64,000 nucleotides of DNA from Halosimplex salinum (GTDB lineage Archaea > Halobacteriota > Halobacteria > Halobacteriales > Haloarculaceae), in assembly GCF_003730195.1 (NCBI RefSeq), contig NZ_QWGG01000005.1, positions 62,001 through 126,000 on the forward strand, read 5' to 3'. The notes beneath the pieces were generated by a model. The model was not told the origin of the DNA and ran no database searches. It saw nothing but the letters and a program-made list of their open reading frames with translations. Position numbers and translations under genes: made by a program. Within the stretch, counting starts at the first letter, position 1. The number at the start of each line of letters is the position of its first letter. Shown here piece after piece: positions 17,584-27,185 of this stretch.

Positions 17584-17753
17584 CCTGATAGTCTCGAACG
17601 TTCAGGCACCGACGTGTCCTGCCATTCCCGGAAGTTCGGGCACGGGCGCGTCCTGCCATTCCCGGAAGTTCGGGCACGGGCGCGTCCTGCCATTCCCGGA
17701 AGTTCGGGCACGGGCGCGTCCTGCCATTCCCGGAAGTTCGGGCACGGACGCGT
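17584..17753. repeat. 34-bp tandem repeats (one degenerate and four near-identical units)
   Basis: Units begin at 17584 (degenerate), 17618, 17652, 17686 and 17720, exactly 34 bp apart with no spacer. The conserved core is CATTCCCGGAAGTTCGGGC. The period is not a multiple of three, so open frames crossing it are artefacts. It contains a CCCG-N6-CGGG dyad. No spacer diversity exists, which excludes a CRISPR array. Confidence 0.85.
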
Positions 17754-17755
17754 CC

Positions 17756-18718: not shown

Positions 18719-19699
18719 TTAGTCTCGAACGAGCGGTTCGTACCAGTCGCGATTCGCCCGATACCACTCGACGAAGGCGTCGACGCCCTCGCGGATGGTG
18801 TGGGTCGGTTCGTAGTCGATCAACTCGCTGGCCTTCTCGATGTCGGCGTGGCTGTGGTCGGCGTCCACGTCGTACCCCTTGGTGTACTCCAGGTCGAGGT
18901 CGGGCGCCAGCTGGTCGCGGATCTCCTCGGCGAGCGTCCGGATCTCGATGTTGTCCGTGCTACCGACGTTCATCACTTCGCCGTCGGCCGCGTCGGTCGA
19001 GAGCAGCGCGCGGTTGGCCGCGAGGATGTCCGCGACGTAGGTCATGTCGCGGGTCTGCGTGCCGTCGCCGTAGATGACCGGCGGCTCCCCGTTGATACAG
19101 CGAGAGACGAAGTTCGAGATGGCCATGTTCGGGCGCATCCGTGGGCCGTACACGGTGAAGTATCGCAGGGCGACCGCGGGGACGCCGTAGCGCTCGGCGT
19201 ACACCATCGCGTAGCGCTCGGCGGCGAGTTTCGACGCGCCGTAGGGGCTGATCGGCGTCGTGAGGTGGTCCTCGTCGTAGGGGAGATAGCGGGGCTTGCC
19301 GTACACCGACGAGGAACTCGCGAGGACGAGGCGCTCGACCCCGTGTTCGCGGGCGGCGTCCAGGACGTTCAGCGTCCCGTCGACGTTCACCTCGTCGTAC
19401 TTGCGAGGACTGTAGTCGGTTCGGACGCCGGCCTGTGCGGCCTGATGATACACGTAGTCGGCCTCGGCGACGAGTTCGTCGACCGTCTCGGCGTCGCGCA
19501 CGTCGCCCTCGACGAGTTCGTAGGACCCATCGCTCTCGTCGGCGGCCGCGCGGCCCGCCTCGACGTTGTGTTCTTTGATCCGCGTGTCGTAGTACGGGTC
19601 GAAGTTGTCCAGCACGACCACGTCGTGGTCGTCGCCGGCGAACGTCTCCGCGAGGTGACCGCCGATGAAGCCGGCGCCACCCGTGACCAGGATACGCAT
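18719..19699 (-). CDS. NAD-dependent nucleotide-sugar epimerase (GalE/UDP-GlcA epimerase type)
   Basis: A 326-residue extended short-chain dehydrogenase starting at the ATG at 19699. The Rossmann motif GGAGFIG is at residues 7-13, the catalytic Tyr/Lys pair is Y153-x3-K157 (SPYGASK), and the upstream Ser/Thr is in ASSSSVYG (near 130). VYGPRMRPNMAISNF and the GDGTQTRDMTYV substrate loop match UDP-glucose/UDP-glucuronate 4-epimerases. It forms a same-strand pair with the AglF-like nucleotidyltransferase (88-bp spacing), with a UDP-glucose dehydrogenase nearby. It probably makes a UDP-sugar for surface glycans. Fold and catalytic residues are certain; the sugar is not. Confidence 0.85.
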   Translation of the reverse strand: MRILVTGGAGFIGGHLAETFAGDDHDVVVLDNFDPYYDTRIKEHNVEAGRAAADESDGSYELVEGDVRDAETVDELVAEADYVYHQAAQAGVRTDYSPRKYDEVNVDGTLNVLDAAREHGVERLVLASSSSVYGKPRYLPYDEDHLTTPISPYGASKLAAERYAMVYAERYGVPAVALRYFTVYGPRMRPNMAISNFVSRCINGEPPVIYGDGTQTRDMTYVADILAANRALLSTDAADGEVMNVGSTDNIEIRTLAEEIRDQLAPDLDLEYTKGYDVDADHSHADIEKASELIDYEPTHTIREGVDAFVEWYRANRDWYEPLVRD

Positions 19700-19787
19700 T
19701 GGTCGTAGGACCGATCGGACCGGAGAAAAAGCCATCGTCACAGCGGTCGGAACGGCGTGTGGGAGACCGCTCACTCCCGGTCGGCGA

Positions 19788-20549
19788 CTATTCCGCGGTC
19801 GCGTCGGCCTGCTCGGGGTCCTCGCCGTCGACGACACCGGCCTCCTGCAGCCGTTTTTCGGCCGACTCGCGGTCCTCGGGGTAGCCCACGTCGGTGCGCC
19901 AGCCGTCCATGCGGATGGCGTCGATAGTACGACCGGAGTGGATGAGCAGGTCGATGGCGTCGCTGATCTCGTACTCGCCGCGATTGGACGGCTGGACGAG
20001 GTGGCAGGCGTGGAGGATCGCCGGCGTGAACGTGTAGAAGCCGGTCATCACGAGGTTCGAGGGCGGGTCCTCGGGCTTCTCGATGACGTCGGTGATCTCG
20101 CCGTACTTGTTCGTGTCGCAGACGCCGTACCGGGAGGCTTCCTCCCAGGGGACCTCCTCGACGAGGAAGGCGGCGTCGGCGCGGGACTCGGCCTGTCGGT
20201 TGACGACGTCATCCAGATTGGCCTGGAAGATGTTGTCGCCGAGCATCAGCATGAAGTCGTCGTCGATGTGCTCTTCGACGGTGAGCAGCGCGTGGGCGAG
20301 CCCCTTCTGTTCGCGCTGGTGGGCGTAGGTGATCGGGACGCCCTCGAATTCGTCTTCGAAGTGGTTGATGATCGCCTGTTTCTTGTAGCCGACGACGACC
20401 AGCAGTTCGTCGGCGCCGAGTTCGACCAGTTGCTCGAAACAGTGCGTGAGGATGGGTTTGCCCGCGACCTCGACCATGCCCTTGGGTTTGTCCTCGGTCA
20501 GCGGACGCAGGCGCGTCCCCTCACCGGCGGCCAACACGACGGCTTGCAT
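19788..20549 (-). CDS. aglF: Sugar nucleotidyltransferase, AglF-like (UTP/dTTP-glucose-1-phosphate)
   Basis: A 253-residue nucleotidyltransferase with the N-terminal signature AAGEGTRLRPLT and the lysine-containing KPKGMVEVAGKPI; a second catalytic segment is DNIFQANLDDVV. The length and the C-terminal GWRTDVGYPEDRESAEKRL match haloarchaeal AglF, a glucose-1-phosphate uridylyltransferase of the N-glycosylation pathway. It makes UDP-glucose (or dTDP-glucose) that the neighbouring epimerase and UDP-glucose dehydrogenase could use. Gene order and strand suggest co-transcription with the epimerase. The family is certain; the nucleotide preference is inferred. Confidence 0.8.
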   Translation of the reverse strand: MQAVVLAAGEGTRLRPLTEDKPKGMVEVAGKPILTHCFEQLVELGADELLVVVGYKKQAIINHFEDEFEGVPITYAHQREQKGLAHALLTVEEHIDDDFMLMLGDNIFQANLDDVVNRQAESRADAAFLVEEVPWEEASRYGVCDTNKYGEITDVIEKPEDPPSNLVMTGFYTFTPAILHACHLVQPSNRGEYEISDAIDLLIHSGRTIDAIRMDGWRTDVGYPEDRESAEKRLQEAGVVDGEDPEQADATAE

Positions 20550-20677
20550 ACTCCCGAGTGGTCGGTCCTCGCGTAAAACTCTTGTCGATAGGCGAACCCC
20601 TTCGCCCGGCGACGGATAGGGGGCCAGCGAATGCCAGCGCCAGTCGTTTCGGTCTCTGGCCCGAACGAGTGGCCACG

Positions 20678-21877
20678 ATGGGAGGCGACGACCCGCGGCC
20701 GACCCGGCGATCCCGCGTCGGCTGGTGGCTGTTCGTCGCCGCGCTCGCGGCCGCCGCGGCGTACGTCGCGTACTCGTTCGTGGGGATGCTCGTCGCCGGC
20801 CTGTTCGGCTACTACGCGACGCGCCCGATCAACGACCGCGTCGAGGAGGTGATCGACTCCGACGCCGTCGCGGCCGGCGCGACCGTGCTGGTCGTCCTCC
20901 TGCCGGTCGTCCTCGTCACGCTGTACGCGGGATTCCAGATCGCGCTCGCCGCGCAGAGCCTGATCGGCGGGGCGGTCGACCCGCTCTCCTTCGCCGCCCA
21001 GTACTTCGGACTCGGCGACCTCCCCGCCGACGAGCGGGAGGCCGTGCGGACGGTTATCCAGGACCCCGGCGAGTTCCTCGAGAACCCCCAACAGACGGCC
21101 CAGACAGTTCTCGAACGGGGGCTGACCGTACTCTCGACCGTCGCGAGCACGCTCCTGTTCCTCGCGCTGGCGATCACCCTCTCGTACTTCCTGCTGAAGA
21201 CCGACGACGCGCTGTCCGACGCGCTCCGGGAACTGTTCGGCGGCCGCGACACGACCGCCTACGCCTACGCGACGGCCGTCGACTCGGACCTCGAGTCGGT
21301 CTTCTTCGGCAACTTCCTCTTCGTCGTCGTCATGGCCGTCGTCGCGACGGCCGCCTACTGGGTGACCAACCTGCTCCTCGGCCCCGCGCTCCGCGTCCCG
21401 ATGGTCCCGGCACTGGGCTTCCTGACGGGTGTCGCGAGCCTGATCCCCGTGGTCGTCGGGAAGGTCGTCTACGTCCCCGTGCTCGCGTATCTCGCGCTCC
21501 AGGCCGTTCGAACCGAGGGGACGCCGCTCCCCGCGGTCGGCGGCGTGGCGGTCGGCTATTTCCTCCTGCTGGACTTCCTCCCGCAGACGTTCCTGCAACC
21601 GTACATCTCCGGGCGGGACCTCGACGCGACGATGCTGCTGTTCGCCTACATCCTCGGCCCGATCCTGTTCGGCTGGTACGGCTTCTTCCTCCTCCCGATC
21701 CTCTTCATCCTGATGCTCGAGGCCGTCCGAATCGCCCTGCCGGAACTCCTCCACGGCGAACGGCTGACCCACACGGCGACACTGGGCGACGACGTCGGTG
21801 CCGACCCGCAGGAGGAAGGCCCGGTCCCCACGGACGAACCGGGCGAGAGCGGTACCGGACCGTCGTCGGACGAGTGA
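20678..21877 (+). CDS. AI-2E family membrane transporter
   Basis: A 399-residue membrane protein starting at the ATG at 20678. It has about eight hydrophobic spans: two at the N-terminus (VGWWLFVAALAAAAAYVAY, FVGMLVAGLFGYYATRPI), one near 70, and a block from 160 to 380 with LSYFLLKTDDALSDAL, FLTGVASLIPVVVGKVVYVPV and DFLPQTFLQPYISGRDLD. These are hallmarks of the AI-2E/TqsA (PerM) family, which includes exporters and Na+/H+ antiporters. A hydrophilic acidic tail ends the protein. It lies between glycan biosynthesis genes on opposite strands. The family is clear; the transported substrate is unknown. Confidence 0.8.
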   Translation: MGGDDPRPTRRSRVGWWLFVAALAAAAAYVAYSFVGMLVAGLFGYYATRPINDRVEEVIDSDAVAAGATVLVVLLPVVLVTLYAGFQIALAAQSLIGGAVDPLSFAAQYFGLGDLPADEREAVRTVIQDPGEFLENPQQTAQTVLERGLTVLSTVASTLLFLALAITLSYFLLKTDDALSDALRELFGGRDTTAYAYATAVDSDLESVFFGNFLFVVVMAVVATAAYWVTNLLLGPALRVPMVPALGFLTGVASLIPVVVGKVVYVPVLAYLALQAVRTEGTPLPAVGGVAVGYFLLLDFLPQTFLQPYISGRDLDATMLLFAYILGPILFGWYGFFLLPILFILMLEAVRIALPELLHGERLTHTATLGDDVGADPQEEGPVPTDEPGESGTGPSSDE

Positions 21878-21973: not shown

Positions 21974-24685
21974 ATGCACGTCAGTATCGTCGGCAGCGGC
22001 TACGTCGGCACGACTGTCGCCGCCTGTCTCGCCGACCTGGGCCACGACGTGACGAACATCGACGTCGACGAGGACGTCGTCGCCGCCATCAACGACGGTG
22101 ACTCGCCGATCCACGAGCCCGGGCTGGACGAACTGGTCGCCGAGCACGCGGGCGACACTCTGCGCGCAACGACCGACTACGACGCCGTCCGGGAGACGGA
22201 CGTGACCTTCCTCGCGCTTCCGACCCCGTCGGAGGCCGACGGCAGCATCGACCTCGCGTACATGGAAGCCGGCGCCGCCTCTCTCGGCGAGGCCCTCGCC
22301 GAGAAAGACGGGGACCACCTCGTCGTCGTCAAGAGCACCGTCGTCCCCGGTTCGACGGAAGATGTCGTCACCCCCGCCATCGAGGACGCCTCCGGGAAGA
22401 CCGCGGGCGAGGACTTCCACGTCTCGATGAACCCCGAATTCCTCCGGATGGGGACCGCCGTCGCGGACTTCCTCGACCCCCAGAAAATCGTCTTCGGCGC
22501 CCGCGAGGAGCGCGCGTACGAGACGCTCCGCGGCGTGTTCGCGCCGCTAGTCGAATCCACCGACGCCGCCGTCGTCGAGACCGGGATCCGGGAAGCCGAG
22601 ATGATCAAGTACGCCAACAACGGTTTCCTCGCCGCCAAGGTCTCCCTCATCAACGACATCGGGAACGTCTGCAAGGAGTTCGACGTCGACGCCTACGAGG
22701 TGGCCGACGCCATCGCGCTGGACGACCGTATCGGCGGGAAGTTCCTCCGCTCCGGTCTGGGTTGGGGTGGGAGCTGTCTCACCGGCGATCAACGAGTGAT
22801 GGCAAAAGACGGGAATGGGACGAAACTCCTGACGCTGTCCGAGTTTTTCGATCGATACGTCTCTGACGGCGCCGTCGACGACGTGTCCGTCCTCAGTTGC
22901 GACGAACAGGGTGAGTTTTCATTCAAGTCCGTAACGGCCGCGACGAAGCGCCCGTACGACGACGAACTCTATACGGTCGGGACGAAGATGAACAAAGAGG
23001 TCACGGTCACCAAGGACCATCCGATGGTGACTGTCGAGCGGGGCGAATCCGTGATCCGTGATGCTGAGGAGCTTTCCCCAGGCGACCAGATACCAGTTCA
23101 GACTGGCCTGCCAGAAGACCCCCTCGGCACGATCGATCTAATCGACCTCGTCGAGTCTTCAGAACAGTTCGACAACTCGAACGTCTACCTCAAACCGTCC
23201 TTCGAACTAGAGACGATCGACGACGAGTTCCGCGAGGTACTGGCCGAATACAACCGGCAGTTCAGTTACTCGAAGTTACACGACCTCGTCAGAGGCAACT
23301 ACCTCCCGCTGAACGTGTTCCTCGAGTACGAGGTGGAGCTACCGATCGACCGTCGTGACCTCTCGCTCTATACGGCTGTTGGTGGCGGACAAACGTACGT
23401 TCCTGCAGTCATCGACGCGGACGCGGCGTTCTGGCGATTCATCGGCTACTACCTCAGTGAGGGGCATATCAACGAGGACGTTTCTGGAAATGGCTCCACT
23501 CCCCGAAAACGCGTCTTTCTGAGCTTTCATCCGAGTGACGAACCGGAGTACGTCTCCGAGGTCGAATCGTATTACCGGAGCCTCGGTATCCGACCGCGGA
23601 TCGAGACGCAGGACACGGCCACACAGATCGAAGTCTCGAGTCGAGTACTCGCCCATCTACTCGAACGACTCGGTTGCGGTACGGGGTCGTATTCCGCATC
23701 TATTCCGGATCTGGCGTATCAGGAGCCGCCGGAGCACAGGAAAGCGCTCCTGTCGGGGCTGTTCCGTGGCGACGGGCACATCGAATACACGAGTCATTCG
23801 AACGCGGTCGTGTACGACTACGGGTCAGTGAGCAAGGAACTGATTCAGGGGATGCAGTTCCTCCTGCACAGCCTCGGAATCGTTCCGAGCTACAAAACGT
23901 CCCAGTCGGCGAAATCGACCCGACCGGCGCATTTCCTTCGAGTAAGCTCGAAACGACAGATAGCACTACTGAAGGAGATGTTCCTGCCTGCCGAACAGAC
24001 GAAGATCCAGGATCGACTCGACGGCTACGACAGGGATATCAAACCGACTGGACACGCAGATGGCGGCACGCATACCACGGTCAAAGTGAACGAGATCTCC
24101 GTCGAAGCGGCCTCGACCGAGGTCTACTCGCTGGAGGTCGAAGACAACCACACGTTCGTGACGACAGATGGCCTCGTGGTACACAACTGCTTCCCAAAAG
24201 ACACGAACGCCATCATCGCGGCCGCCCGGAGCGTGGGTTACGAGCCCCCGATGCTGGAGGCCGCTGTCGAGGTCAACGACGCCCAACCCGAGCGCCTCCT
24301 CTCGCTGCTCGACGAACGAGCGGACGTGCGCGGCGAGCGCGTGGCGGTGCTCGGACTGTCGTTCAAGCCCGGGACCGACGACGTGCGCGGGACGCGCGCG
24401 GTGCCGGTCATCGAGGGGCTCCAGAAGCGCGGGGCCGAAGTGGTCGCCTACGACCCCGTCGCGGCCGAGAGCTTCGCCGAGTACTACGAGGATATCGAGG
24501 TCGAATACGCGGCGTCGGCGGCCGAGGCGCTGGAGGGCGCCCACGCGGCCGTCGCGGTCACCGACTGGGACGAGTTCGCCGCGCTCGACGGCGAGTTCGA
24601 CGCGATGGCGAACCCCCTCGTCGTCGACGGGCGCCACATCGTCGAACGGCGCGACGGCATCGAGTACGTCGGCCTGACGTGGTGA
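21974..24685 (+). CDS. UDP-glucose 6-dehydrogenase precursor with intein
   Basis: The 903-codon gene encodes a UDP-glucose/GDP-mannose dehydrogenase interrupted in frame by an intein (residues 268-738). After splicing the enzyme is 432 residues, the normal length. The N-terminal Rossmann domain starts HVSIVGSGYVGTTVA, the substrate domain contains MIKYANNGFLAAKVSLIND, and the C-terminal UDP-binding domain has LGLSFKPGTDDVRGTRA. The catalytic motif GWGGS-CFPKDT is split exactly before its nucleophilic Cys, which is also the first C-extein residue. The enzyme oxidises UDP-glucose to UDP-glucuronate in the cytoplasm for surface polysaccharide or N-glycan. Activity therefore depends on splicing. 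A good ATG start follows a short A/T-poor leader. Confidence 0.92.
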   Translation: MHVSIVGSGYVGTTVAACLADLGHDVTNIDVDEDVVAAINDGDSPIHEPGLDELVAEHAGDTLRATTDYDAVRETDVTFLALPTPSEADGSIDLAYMEAGAASLGEALAEKDGDHLVVVKSTVVPGSTEDVVTPAIEDASGKTAGEDFHVSMNPEFLRMGTAVADFLDPQKIVFGAREERAYETLRGVFAPLVESTDAAVVETGIREAEMIKYANNGFLAAKVSLINDIGNVCKEFDVDAYEVADAIALDDRIGGKFLRSGLGWGGSCLTGDQRVMAKDGNGTKLLTLSEFFDRYVSDGAVDDVSVLSCDEQGEFSFKSVTAATKRPYDDELYTVGTKMNKEVTVTKDHPMVTVERGESVIRDAEELSPGDQIPVQTGLPEDPLGTIDLIDLVESSEQFDNSNVYLKPSFELETIDDEFREVLAEYNRQFSYSKLHDLVRGNYLPLNVFLEYEVELPIDRRDLSLYTAVGGGQTYVPAVIDADAAFWRFIGYYLSEGHINEDVSGNGSTPRKRVFLSFHPSDEPEYVSEVESYYRSLGIRPRIETQDTATQIEVSSRVLAHLLERLGCGTGSYSASIPDLAYQEPPEHRKALLSGLFRGDGHIEYTSHSNAVVYDYGSVSKELIQGMQFLLHSLGIVPSYKTSQSAKSTRPAHFLRVSSKRQIALLKEMFLPAEQTKIQDRLDGYDRDIKPTGHADGGTHTTVKVNEISVEAASTEVYSLEVEDNHTFVTTDGLVVHNCFPKDTNAIIAAARSVGYEPPMLEAAVEVNDAQPERLLSLLDERADVRGERVAVLGLSFKPGTDDVRGTRAVPVIEGLQKRGAEVVAYDPVAAESFAEYYEDIEVEYAASAAEALEGAHAAVAVTDWDEFAALDGEFDAMANPLVVDGRHIVERRDGIEYVGLTW
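22775..24187 (+). other. Intein (471 aa) with LAGLIDADG homing endonuclease domain
   Basis: The intein begins with Cys (CLTGDQRVMAKDG, block A) and ends LVVHN before the host Cys (block G). Block B is VTVTKDHPMVTV with the conserved Thr and His, and block F is VYSLEVEDNHTFVTTDG. Two DOD endonuclease motifs are present: FWRFIGYYLSEGHI (precursor residues 486-499) and LLSGLFRGDGHI (592-603). All splicing residues (Cys1, block B His, penultimate His, Asn, +1 Cys) are intact, so splicing and homing are probably active. The segment is visibly less G+C-rich than its host gene, as expected for a mobile insertion. Confidence 0.95.
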
Positions 24686-24722: not shown

Positions 24723-27185
24723 TTACTCTCCGACTCGCACCCGTGTTCCGTTCCGAACCGCCGATTCGGGGACGGTCACGGTTCGTGTCCCGTTCCCCAC
24801 GGCGAGTTCGTACTCGGCGGGGTAGGGGACGACGAGTCGGTACTCGCCGTCGGCGCCGGTCGCGGCCTGCTGGCGGTACAGGAACGACTCGTTGGGGATG
24901 TCCACCGTCGTCCGCGCCTCGACGGTCGTGTTCGCGGACGCGGTCCCCGCGACGGTCGCGCCGGGGACGAGCGTGAACACCTTCTTGCGCGTGGACGCAG
25001 AGGCGAAGACCGCCCGGTAGTGCGAGACGGCGTCGTACCCTTCTTCGGCCCAGCGGCTCCCGTAGGTCACGTAGAGGTGTCGCTGGATCGTGTCGGGACG
25101 GCGCGGCAGCGCCTCGATCACGACGAATCCGGTCTCCTCGTGCAATCGGTCGTACCACCCGGCCGGGTCGTCGTCGTAGACGAACTCCTCGTAGGTGTCC
25201 TGGGCGGTCAGGTAGCTCTGTGACTCCCCGTTGACGAAGTAGTTGAACATCCGGTTGACGCCCCAGCGACTCAGGACGTAGTTCTCGGGGTAGACCAGCT
25301 CTTCGTCCTCGGCGTGGGCGTCGATCCACGTCGCGGTCCGATAGCTCTCGTCGTCGACGACCGCCCCGGAAACCTCTCCGGGCAGATACAGTCCGCTGGT
25401 TCCGACCAGGAGCGTGACGACCGCGACCGTCACCACGACGGACCTGACCGAGAGGGCGTCTCTGTCGACTCTCCACAGCGTCGACCTCCCGTCGGGCGCC
25501 GACGGCCTGTCACCCGGACCCGAACTCGACAGCGGTCCCGTCTCGTGAGCGACACCGGCCGGCGACGCCACGAGTTCCAGGCGGGCGAGCAGCCAGACGA
25601 ACCCGAGGCCGGCGAAGAGGGCCAGCAGCGGCGCGAAGTGCGCGGCGAAGCGGACCTGGAGCGCCGTCAGGAAGAGGAGCCACCAGCCGTAGCCGCTCAG
25701 CGCCAGCCACTGCCGGTCGCCGAGCGCGGCCCGACGCAGGCCCCAGCCCATGACCGGCAGGCCCAGCAGGAGGAACGCGCCCAGCAGTTCGAGTCCGAGC
25801 GCGTGGTCGAGGGTGAACGACGGCGCCTTCTCCCCGATATCCGACCGGAACAGCAGGAACCCGACGCCGTCGAACAGGTCGTCCACCAGCCCCGGGACGA
25901 CTAGCTGTGACAGGAGCAGGACCGCGACGGACGTCCCGATTTCGGCCGCGAGGAGCGTTCGCACGGGCAGGTCTCGGCGACGGACGAGTTCGCCCACTGC
26001 GGCGAGACCGAGTCCGCTCGCGAGCACCAGCCCGGGGACGACCGCGACGGTCACCGACTGCCAGCCCAGCGCGAGGTGGGCGCCGAGGGAGGCGACTGCG
26101 GCGACGGCGGTACCCAGCAGGACCGGTGCGTTCGCCCGCAGCGGGGGACGGTCGTCGGCGACGTCCAGCGGGACCGCCGCGGCGAGGTACCCGGCGACGG
26201 GTACCAGTAGCAGCGGGCTCCCTTCCCACGCCAGGACCTGTGCGGCGAGACAGCCGCCGAGCAGGGCCGCACCGCGACGCGCTCGCGAGCCGAACGGGTC
26301 GTCGACGGTGACCAGCCACGCCAGGACGGCCACCGTCGCCGTCAGCCAGAGCGCGTCGAAGGCGTGGTGGTCACCGAAGCCCAGCGAGGTGCGGAACGCG
26401 AACCCGGGGACGAGCGCGAGCGAGACGGCGGCGGCGAGCCCGACCCGCCGGTCGCCGAGCACGCGGGCGCCGAGCAGGTACACGAGTCCGCCGACGAGGA
26501 CACCGGTGACGACCGGGTACAGCGCGAGGACGGTCCCCGATGCCTCCCGCCCGCCTCCGACCAGCGCACTGACCCACCACATCGTCGCCACGAACAGCGG
26601 CTCGCCCGAGGGGATCCCGACGAGCGTGGACAGCTCCGCCGGGCTCCGGGCGGTCCCGAGGAGCTGATCGACGAGATACCGGTAGTAGTAGGGGTCGTTC
26701 CCGGTGAGCACGACCCGTCCGCTCCTGAACACGTCGGGATAAATGTACGCTCGCGTCCAGACGAACAGCGCGAAGACGACGAGCGCCGTCCCCACGGCCG
26801 GTAGCACGCCCGTGGACGCGTCGGGCCAGTCGATCGACCGTCCGACCGCGGTTTCGCTTCCGCTTCCGGATCCGGTTTCGCTTCCGCTTCCGCTTCCGCT
26901 TCCGCTTCCGCTCCCGGCCCCACTCCCGTCTTCGTCTCCGTTGCGAGCGCCTCGGCCGGCGTCGAGTCCGCTCCTGACGGCGCCGGGGTCCGAGAGACGG
27001 TAGCCGTCGCCCGCTTCCTCGACGATTCCCTGTTCGACGAGCCGGCCGAACGTGCCCGTATCGACGGGCGCGTCCTCGAAGGTCCACGTTTCGGCGTCGT
27101 CGTCGAGATCGAGAAGCGCATTCAGCGTCGTCGCGAACTCGAGGTCGTCCGCGACGCGCTCGGAGAGCCCGCTCCTGTCACTCAT
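24723..27185 (-). CDS. STT3/AglB-like oligosaccharyltransferase-family membrane protein with N-terminal extension
   Basis: An 820-residue protein. Residues 1-75 look like a small winged-helix-type domain. Residues about 80-115 are a Gly/Ser/Glu linker coded by GCTTCC-type repeats. Then follow about 12 membrane spans and a C-terminal globular domain. STT3 features are [13 protein letters not shown] (first acidic loop motif) and [13 protein letters not shown] (DHH motif). In the globular domain the usual WWDYG of oligosaccharyltransferases is replaced by [11 protein letters not shown]. It sits in a sugar-nucleotide cluster, so transfer of a lipid-linked glycan is plausible. The changed acceptor motif means it may be an alternative or inactive paralogue. 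Confidence 0.75.
26855..26916. repeat. Hexanucleotide (CTTCCG) repeat tract inside the STT3-like gene
   Basis: Five perfect CTTCCG units (26881-26910) followed by a CTCCCG unit, plus imperfect units on the left, encode the Gly-Ser/Glu linker. The unit length is a multiple of three, so slippage would change linker length without a frameshift. Confidence 0.85.

Follow-up and report, generated by a model that had tools for sequence, protein, structure and literature searches.

The only AglM-type UDP-glucose dehydrogenase (UGD) gene of Halosimplex salinum is almost certainly interrupted, at the codon of its catalytic cysteine, by a class 1 homing intein of full length, which belongs to the 'udp' allele and was acquired horizontally. 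In the window, by which we mean the whole 64,000-nucleotide stretch of DNA analyzed, positions 21974-24685 of the forward strand translate as a single open frame of 903 codons, which encodes both the enzyme and the intein. The intein interrupts UGD after residue 267, with the junctions GLGWGGS and CFPKDT, and the opposite strand of the intein stretch contains several stops. The host protein passes the NF041297 AglM model with 749.6 bits against a curated cut-off of 670, while the other nucleotide-sugar dehydrogenases of the genome score far lower. Its GGSCFPKD motif aligns without gaps to that of the solved UGDs 3vtf, 4a7p, and 3gg2. The cysteine of this motif is the catalytic nucleophile in the UGD family. 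Since the same residue forms the +1 position of the C-extein, activity should need splicing, and none is expected before the intein has been removed.

The arrangement suggests how the element would work. Translation would give a 903-residue precursor, in which Cys1 would attack the Ser267-Cys1 bond and the N-extein would be transferred to the +1 Cys, which is UGD's own catalytic cysteine. Asn471 would then cyclize, and the exteins would join as GGS-CFPKD to form a 432-residue UGD. The freed intein would cut intein-free UGD alleles at about the insertion site, and would spread when the break is repaired from a copy that carries it. Splicing, cutting, homing, and the inactivity of the unspliced enzyme are inferences. 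The features concerned and the neighboring genes are collected in Table 1.

Table 1. Features of the interrupted UGD gene and its surroundings, in window positions.
Feature	Position	Strand	Basis
N-extein, UGD AglM residues 1-267, ending GLGWGGS	21974..22774	+	frame; NF041297 AglM; PF03721/PF00984; syntenic empty gene in same genus
Intein, 471 residues, class 1 (Cys1...His-Asn), 'udp' allele	22775..24187	+	translation; family models; relatives; predicted structure
Cys1 codon, first splicing nucleophile	22775..22777	+	invariant in 23 aligned inteins
Block B, T79-x-x-H82 (TKDH)	23009..23020	+	T79 and H82 invariant in 23 inteins
Homing-endonuclease region inside HINT domain, residues ~116-427	23120..24055	+	LAGLIDADG_3/Hom_end; structure; omega of residues 206-427
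LAGLIDADG motif 1, RFIGYYLSEGHI, acidic residue E229	23435..23470	+	E229-G230 invariant in 23 inteins
LAGLIDADG motif 2, LLSGLFRGDGHIE, acidic residue D333	23747..23785	+	R331-G332-D333-G334 invariant in 23 inteins
Blocks F/G, VEDNHTFVTTDGLVVHN, penultimate His470 and terminal Asn471	24137..24187	+	TIGR01443; H470 and N471 invariant in 23 inteins
C-extein, UGD residues 268-432 and stop	24188..24685	+	PF03720; NF041297
+1 Cys codon (TGC) of C-extein, conserved UGD GGSCFPKD cysteine	24188..24190	+	alignment with solved UGDs; insertion at this codon in every full-length archaeal relative
NAD-dependent epimerase	18719-19837	-	
Nucleotidyltransferase	19788-20549	-	
AI-2E-family transporter, between nucleotidyltransferase and UGD	20558-21877	+	
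aglB, STT3 and AglB_L1 domains	24723-27185	-	domain models

Both ends of the insert and its central part are recognized by family models above their curated cut-offs: TIGR01445 intein_Nterm (2.4e-14, residues 1-86), TIGR01443 intein_Cterm (residues 449-471), PF14890 (1.5e-16), and LAGLIDADG_3 (PF14528, 4.8e-15). In an alignment of 23 homologous inteins, residues C1, T79, H82, E229, D333, H470, and N471 are invariant. An AlphaFold2 model of the intein, calculated from this alignment, reached a mean pLDDT of 90.3 and a pTM of 0.90. Its best structural match is the TliVMA intein (7qss; Z 38.0, 353 residues at 2.5 A), followed by PI-PkoII (2cw7; Z 36.7) and PI-PfuI (1dq3; Z 29.7), all of which align end to end. 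These three share the two-domain architecture of the H. salinum intein, but are only 18-19% identical to it over the structural alignment and take their names from other host genes or are known to occur in them. The HINT fold is matched by mini-inteins, at best with a Z of 21.7 over 153 residues (2.0 A), and residues of about 212-424 match the LAGLIDADG enzymes I-DmoI and I-Tsp061I with Z of about 17. By these matches, the intein consists of a splicing domain of the HINT type into which a LAGLIDADG endonuclease with two motifs is nested, and residues 116-205, which precede the first LAGLIDADG motif, may help to recognize DNA. Chance resemblance is not a serious alternative to intein identity; the insert is a real class 1 intein that looks intact and is predicted to splice. 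An earlier note on this DNA had described an intein from CLTGDQRV to VVHN in a contiguous frame, splitting the catalytic-cysteine motif and retaining its splicing residues and two LAGLIDADG motifs. Its boundaries hold to the base, and the frame, the placement in GGSCFPKD, the splicing residues (C1, TxxH, HN, and the +1 Cys, conserved in relatives), and both motifs are all borne out. The note's statement that the enzyme cannot work unless it is spliced is sound as an inference.

The intein belongs to an allele that was already known. A survey of Halobacteria published in 2014 names 24 intein alleles in the class, one of them 'udp' (UDP-glucose 6-dehydrogenase), with seven halobacterial, two bacterial, and six other euryarchaeal sequences, including Methanocaldococcus jannaschii NP_248048, and reports that the halobacterial sequences are monophyletic (PMC4071816). 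The H. salinum intein shares with this allele the host enzyme, the full size, and the class of organisms, and is a further copy of it; the kind of element and its mosaic spread were known, a point that the earlier note had missed, so the novelty is low. What is new is the H. salinum copy itself and its acquisition in this genus: the nearest other member that we found is 79% identical, and the genus is otherwise empty among comparable members.

When species genomes of bacteria and archaea were scanned, 25 relatives matched along the length of the query. All full-length archaeal relatives that were read, including those of Halorubrum and Halobacterium, interrupt the identical codon (GGS|C...HN|CFPKD); the contig of one relative (L046) begins within the intein. 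Outside the haloarchaea, the identical codon is occupied in a Candidatus Nanohalarchaeota MAG (59% identical), in Candidatus Methanohalarchaeum (54%), and in a Thermoplasmatota MAG (48%). Identity within the haloarchaeal and nanohaloarchaeal inteins is 59-79%, and a single starred clade sets them apart from the bacterial copies, which points to common descent of the H. salinum intein with the other 'udp' members, as judged on the haloarchaea and the nanohaloarchaeon. The earlier note had also raised the question of a site and origin shared with Methanocaldococcus. The literature largely answers it, as PMC4071816 places M. jannaschii and the haloarchaeal copies in a single 'udp' allele; the identical codon is interrupted in the other archaea read, and no Methanocaldococcus copy was recognizable as a match in the phylum sample. 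The one unidentified match over residues 1-471 that was inspected (G100 C4) is an intein in a radical-SAM-like protein. The nanohaloarchaeal intein (L055, 6001-7410) lies on a 1-Mb contig in the organism's own divergent UGD (49% identical), as would fit an exchange between haloarchaea and the DPANN archaea that share their habitats.

The bacterial relatives come from Omnitrophota (L058, L059) and Acidobacteriota (L060-L062). Their inteins, 31-36% identical to the query, precede the homologous catalytic cysteine in nucleotide-sugar dehydrogenases (GGH|C...HN|CIPxDP). Models of the UDP-ManNAc dehydrogenase type give the two tested hosts (L058, L060) higher scores than AglM does, yet scores under their own cut-offs. 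That the same cysteine is targeted in bacterial nucleotide-sugar dehydrogenases nearer to the UDP-ManNAc type is a possible addition to what is known of the allele. Within the sample of the class, the intein is present in 20 of 391 genomes (~5%) and 8 of 86 genera. A virus or plasmid as carrier was considered and rejected: no close copy was found in the viral_contigs, phage, and plasmid collections, whose matches are other inteins of ~23-28% identity or a short C-terminal match of 44%.

Comparison with the genus of H. salinum separates the history of the intein from that of its host gene. Six other genomes of the genus have a UGD that can be compared, and in all of them it is intein-free, with 87-90% identity to the joined extein; one genome of the genus (71% complete) gave no comparable UGD match. 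One of the six (G005) carries the empty gene in the same neighborhood, and its blastn blocks meet at 22770 and 24188, so that the intein in the open 903-codon frame is an in-frame insertion relative to a syntenic uninterrupted homologue. In the extein tree, the H. salinum UGD lies inside its own genus (support 99/94 and 100/98). In the intein tree, its intein joins those of Halobacteriales archaeon QS_6_64_34 (L038) and of a member of the same family (L102, genome G584) with support 100/98, and then L010. The two nearest inteins, which are of Haloarculaceae type, are equal to the query in length and site and 79% identical over 471 residues, whereas their host UGDs are 74-76% identical to that of H. 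salinum and belong to another clade; an extein clade shared by the three was rejected (p-AU 8e-60). Toward these two, the intein is thus better conserved than the host, although inteins usually evolve faster (PMC4071816). Because the host gene is native to the genus and the intein foreign, the intein moved without the gene, which points to horizontal gain of the intein alone.

On the extein tree, the occupied state requires at least five changes when only starred branches are counted, and eight on the best tree. Such trees count changes and by themselves do not separate gain from loss, so that an intein ancestral to the genus and precisely lost from its other species would also fit them. We consider this extremely improbable, since clean losses would be required on the branches around H. 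salinum, which has six empty relatives, and the nearest inteins lie outside the genus and conflict with the host tree. The choice of gain in H. salinum over repeated loss in its sisters was made by parsimony, and the immediate donor lies outside the sampled data. Base composition by itself does not bear on whether the gain was recent. The lower G+C that the earlier note had seen is real (57.2% in the intein against 67.5% and 71.1% in the N- and C-terminal parts of the host), but in each of the 25 haloarchaeal copies that were compared, G+C is below that of the host. This contrast is common to the whole allele and alone carries no information on recent arrival, and we rejected it as a sign of such.

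The flanks were also compared. In 60-bp bins, the sequence on both sides is nearest to the own genus, and a long co-conversion tract was rejected, as a donor-like tract is absent and only the last few junction bases stand apart. Haloarchaeal alleles, 24 of them occupied and 62 empty, were compared up to 99 bases from the site, where 151 positions vary. The two that best separate the groups are silent and both lie at the junction: position +3 (24190) is C in 24/24 occupied and 36/62 empty alleles (p 0.00015), and position -4 (22771) is G in 16/24 and 16/62 (p 0.0026). Since the allele sequences are related, the p values are no more than indicative. The junction reads GGG-AGC|TGC in H. salinum, while four of the six sisters have TCN|TGT and two AGC|TGC. 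As a lead, this bias suggests either very short co-conversion in homing or a target preference, and the silent bases shared by occupied alleles are a possible addition to what is known. Co-conversion of flanking codons has been reported for haloarchaeal mcm inteins (PMC10643990).

In ten intein pairs, omega is ~0.06-0.16 for the endonuclease (residues 206-427) and 0.08-0.17 for the splicing region. For pairs of the H. salinum copy with its nearest relatives these values rest on near-saturated synonymous sites (pS 0.62-0.70), and closer pairs give the same answer. By this pattern of substitution, the endonuclease is under purifying selection. No mini-inteins were seen among the haloarchaeal copies, all but one of which are full length and open. 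The exception, from MAG SW_7_65_23 (L054, 6001-7536), has a stop codon inside the intein and about 40 extra residues, which reflect decay or an assembly error.

An alternative would be a splicing intein whose endonuclease is dead or unused, and which is kept by vertical descent and replacement of whole genes instead of homing. The stop inside the L054 intein indicates that decay may occur, and Halobacterium salinarum suggests that some UGD alleles travel as whole genes. In strain DSM 3754 (L044) the single UGD match bears the intein, and VNG1048G of strain NRC-1 is a protein of 426 residues (PMC5041007). The published NRC-1 primers mismatch the DSM 3754 gene at 6/24 and 4/25 positions, so the gene differs at both ends; the two alleles have diverged and do not differ by the intein alone, and we rejected this species as a simple plus/minus pair. 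Nevertheless, the alternative is unlikely. The acidic residues of the endonuclease are invariant, its omega in most pairs is no higher than in the splicing region, the haloarchaeal copies have stayed long and open with the one exception, and whole-gene replacement disagrees with a foreign intein in a native H. salinum gene. A homing intein remains the preferred reading.

The UGD gene is located among glycosylation genes (Table 1). Two repeats were seen in this region: a tandem repeat at 17600-17755 (34-bp unit, 4.6 copies, 95% match) near these genes, and a CGCTTC-type hexanucleotide repeat at 26849-26917, which encodes a linker rich in Gly, Ser, and Glu within the N-terminal part of AglB. The neighborhood bears on the idea that conditional splicing, in response to salt, redox state, or metal, switches the supply of UDP-glucuronate and thereby surface N-glycosylation. 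An intein that directly blocks the catalytic cysteine, next to aglB and a nucleotidyltransferase gene, would suit such a switch; the Halobacterium UGD is salt-sensitive (PMC5041007, which concerns the enzyme and not an intein), and conditional splicing has been reported for other inteins (e.g. PMC6195587). However, the patchy distribution (5%) and the absence from all six comparable sisters are more readily explained by a parasite than by a switch that has been retained, and no sequence feature specific to regulation and no positive evidence for it was found in this analysis, which makes a regulatory intein very improbable. We give hardly more credence to a broader proposal, in which the lineage tracks a single catalytic cysteine through paralogous nucleotide-sugar dehydrogenases and from one domain of life to another, and haloarchaeal splicing at this cysteine switches UDP-glucuronate for surface glycosylation and is not only parasitic.

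Two further inteins were detected in the H. salinum genome. One, in RtcB (contig C11, about 688.3-689.6 kb; L068, L069), sits directly before the active-site cysteine (GYDIN|C...VVSN|CGVRMM), which we take to be catalytic, so that in two of the three detected inteins, those of UGD and RtcB, the catalytic cysteine of the host is the +1 nucleophile. The other (C21:512901-514298; L005) interrupts the DNA polymerase II large subunit and seemingly ends in ...SVKQ|C, with a C-terminal Gln instead of Asn.

Taken together, the analysis leaves the understanding of inteins in general unchanged and adds two small leads, the silent bases shared at the junction and the 'udp' intein in a nanohaloarchaeon. 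The case itself is a clean natural intein invasion, with a native host gene, a foreign intein, and empty sister alleles, in an enzyme that has a simple activity assay and whose catalytic residue doubles as a splicing nucleophile. The clean invasion and the easily assayed enzyme together make it a convenient system for studying homing and salt-dependent splicing in haloarchaea.
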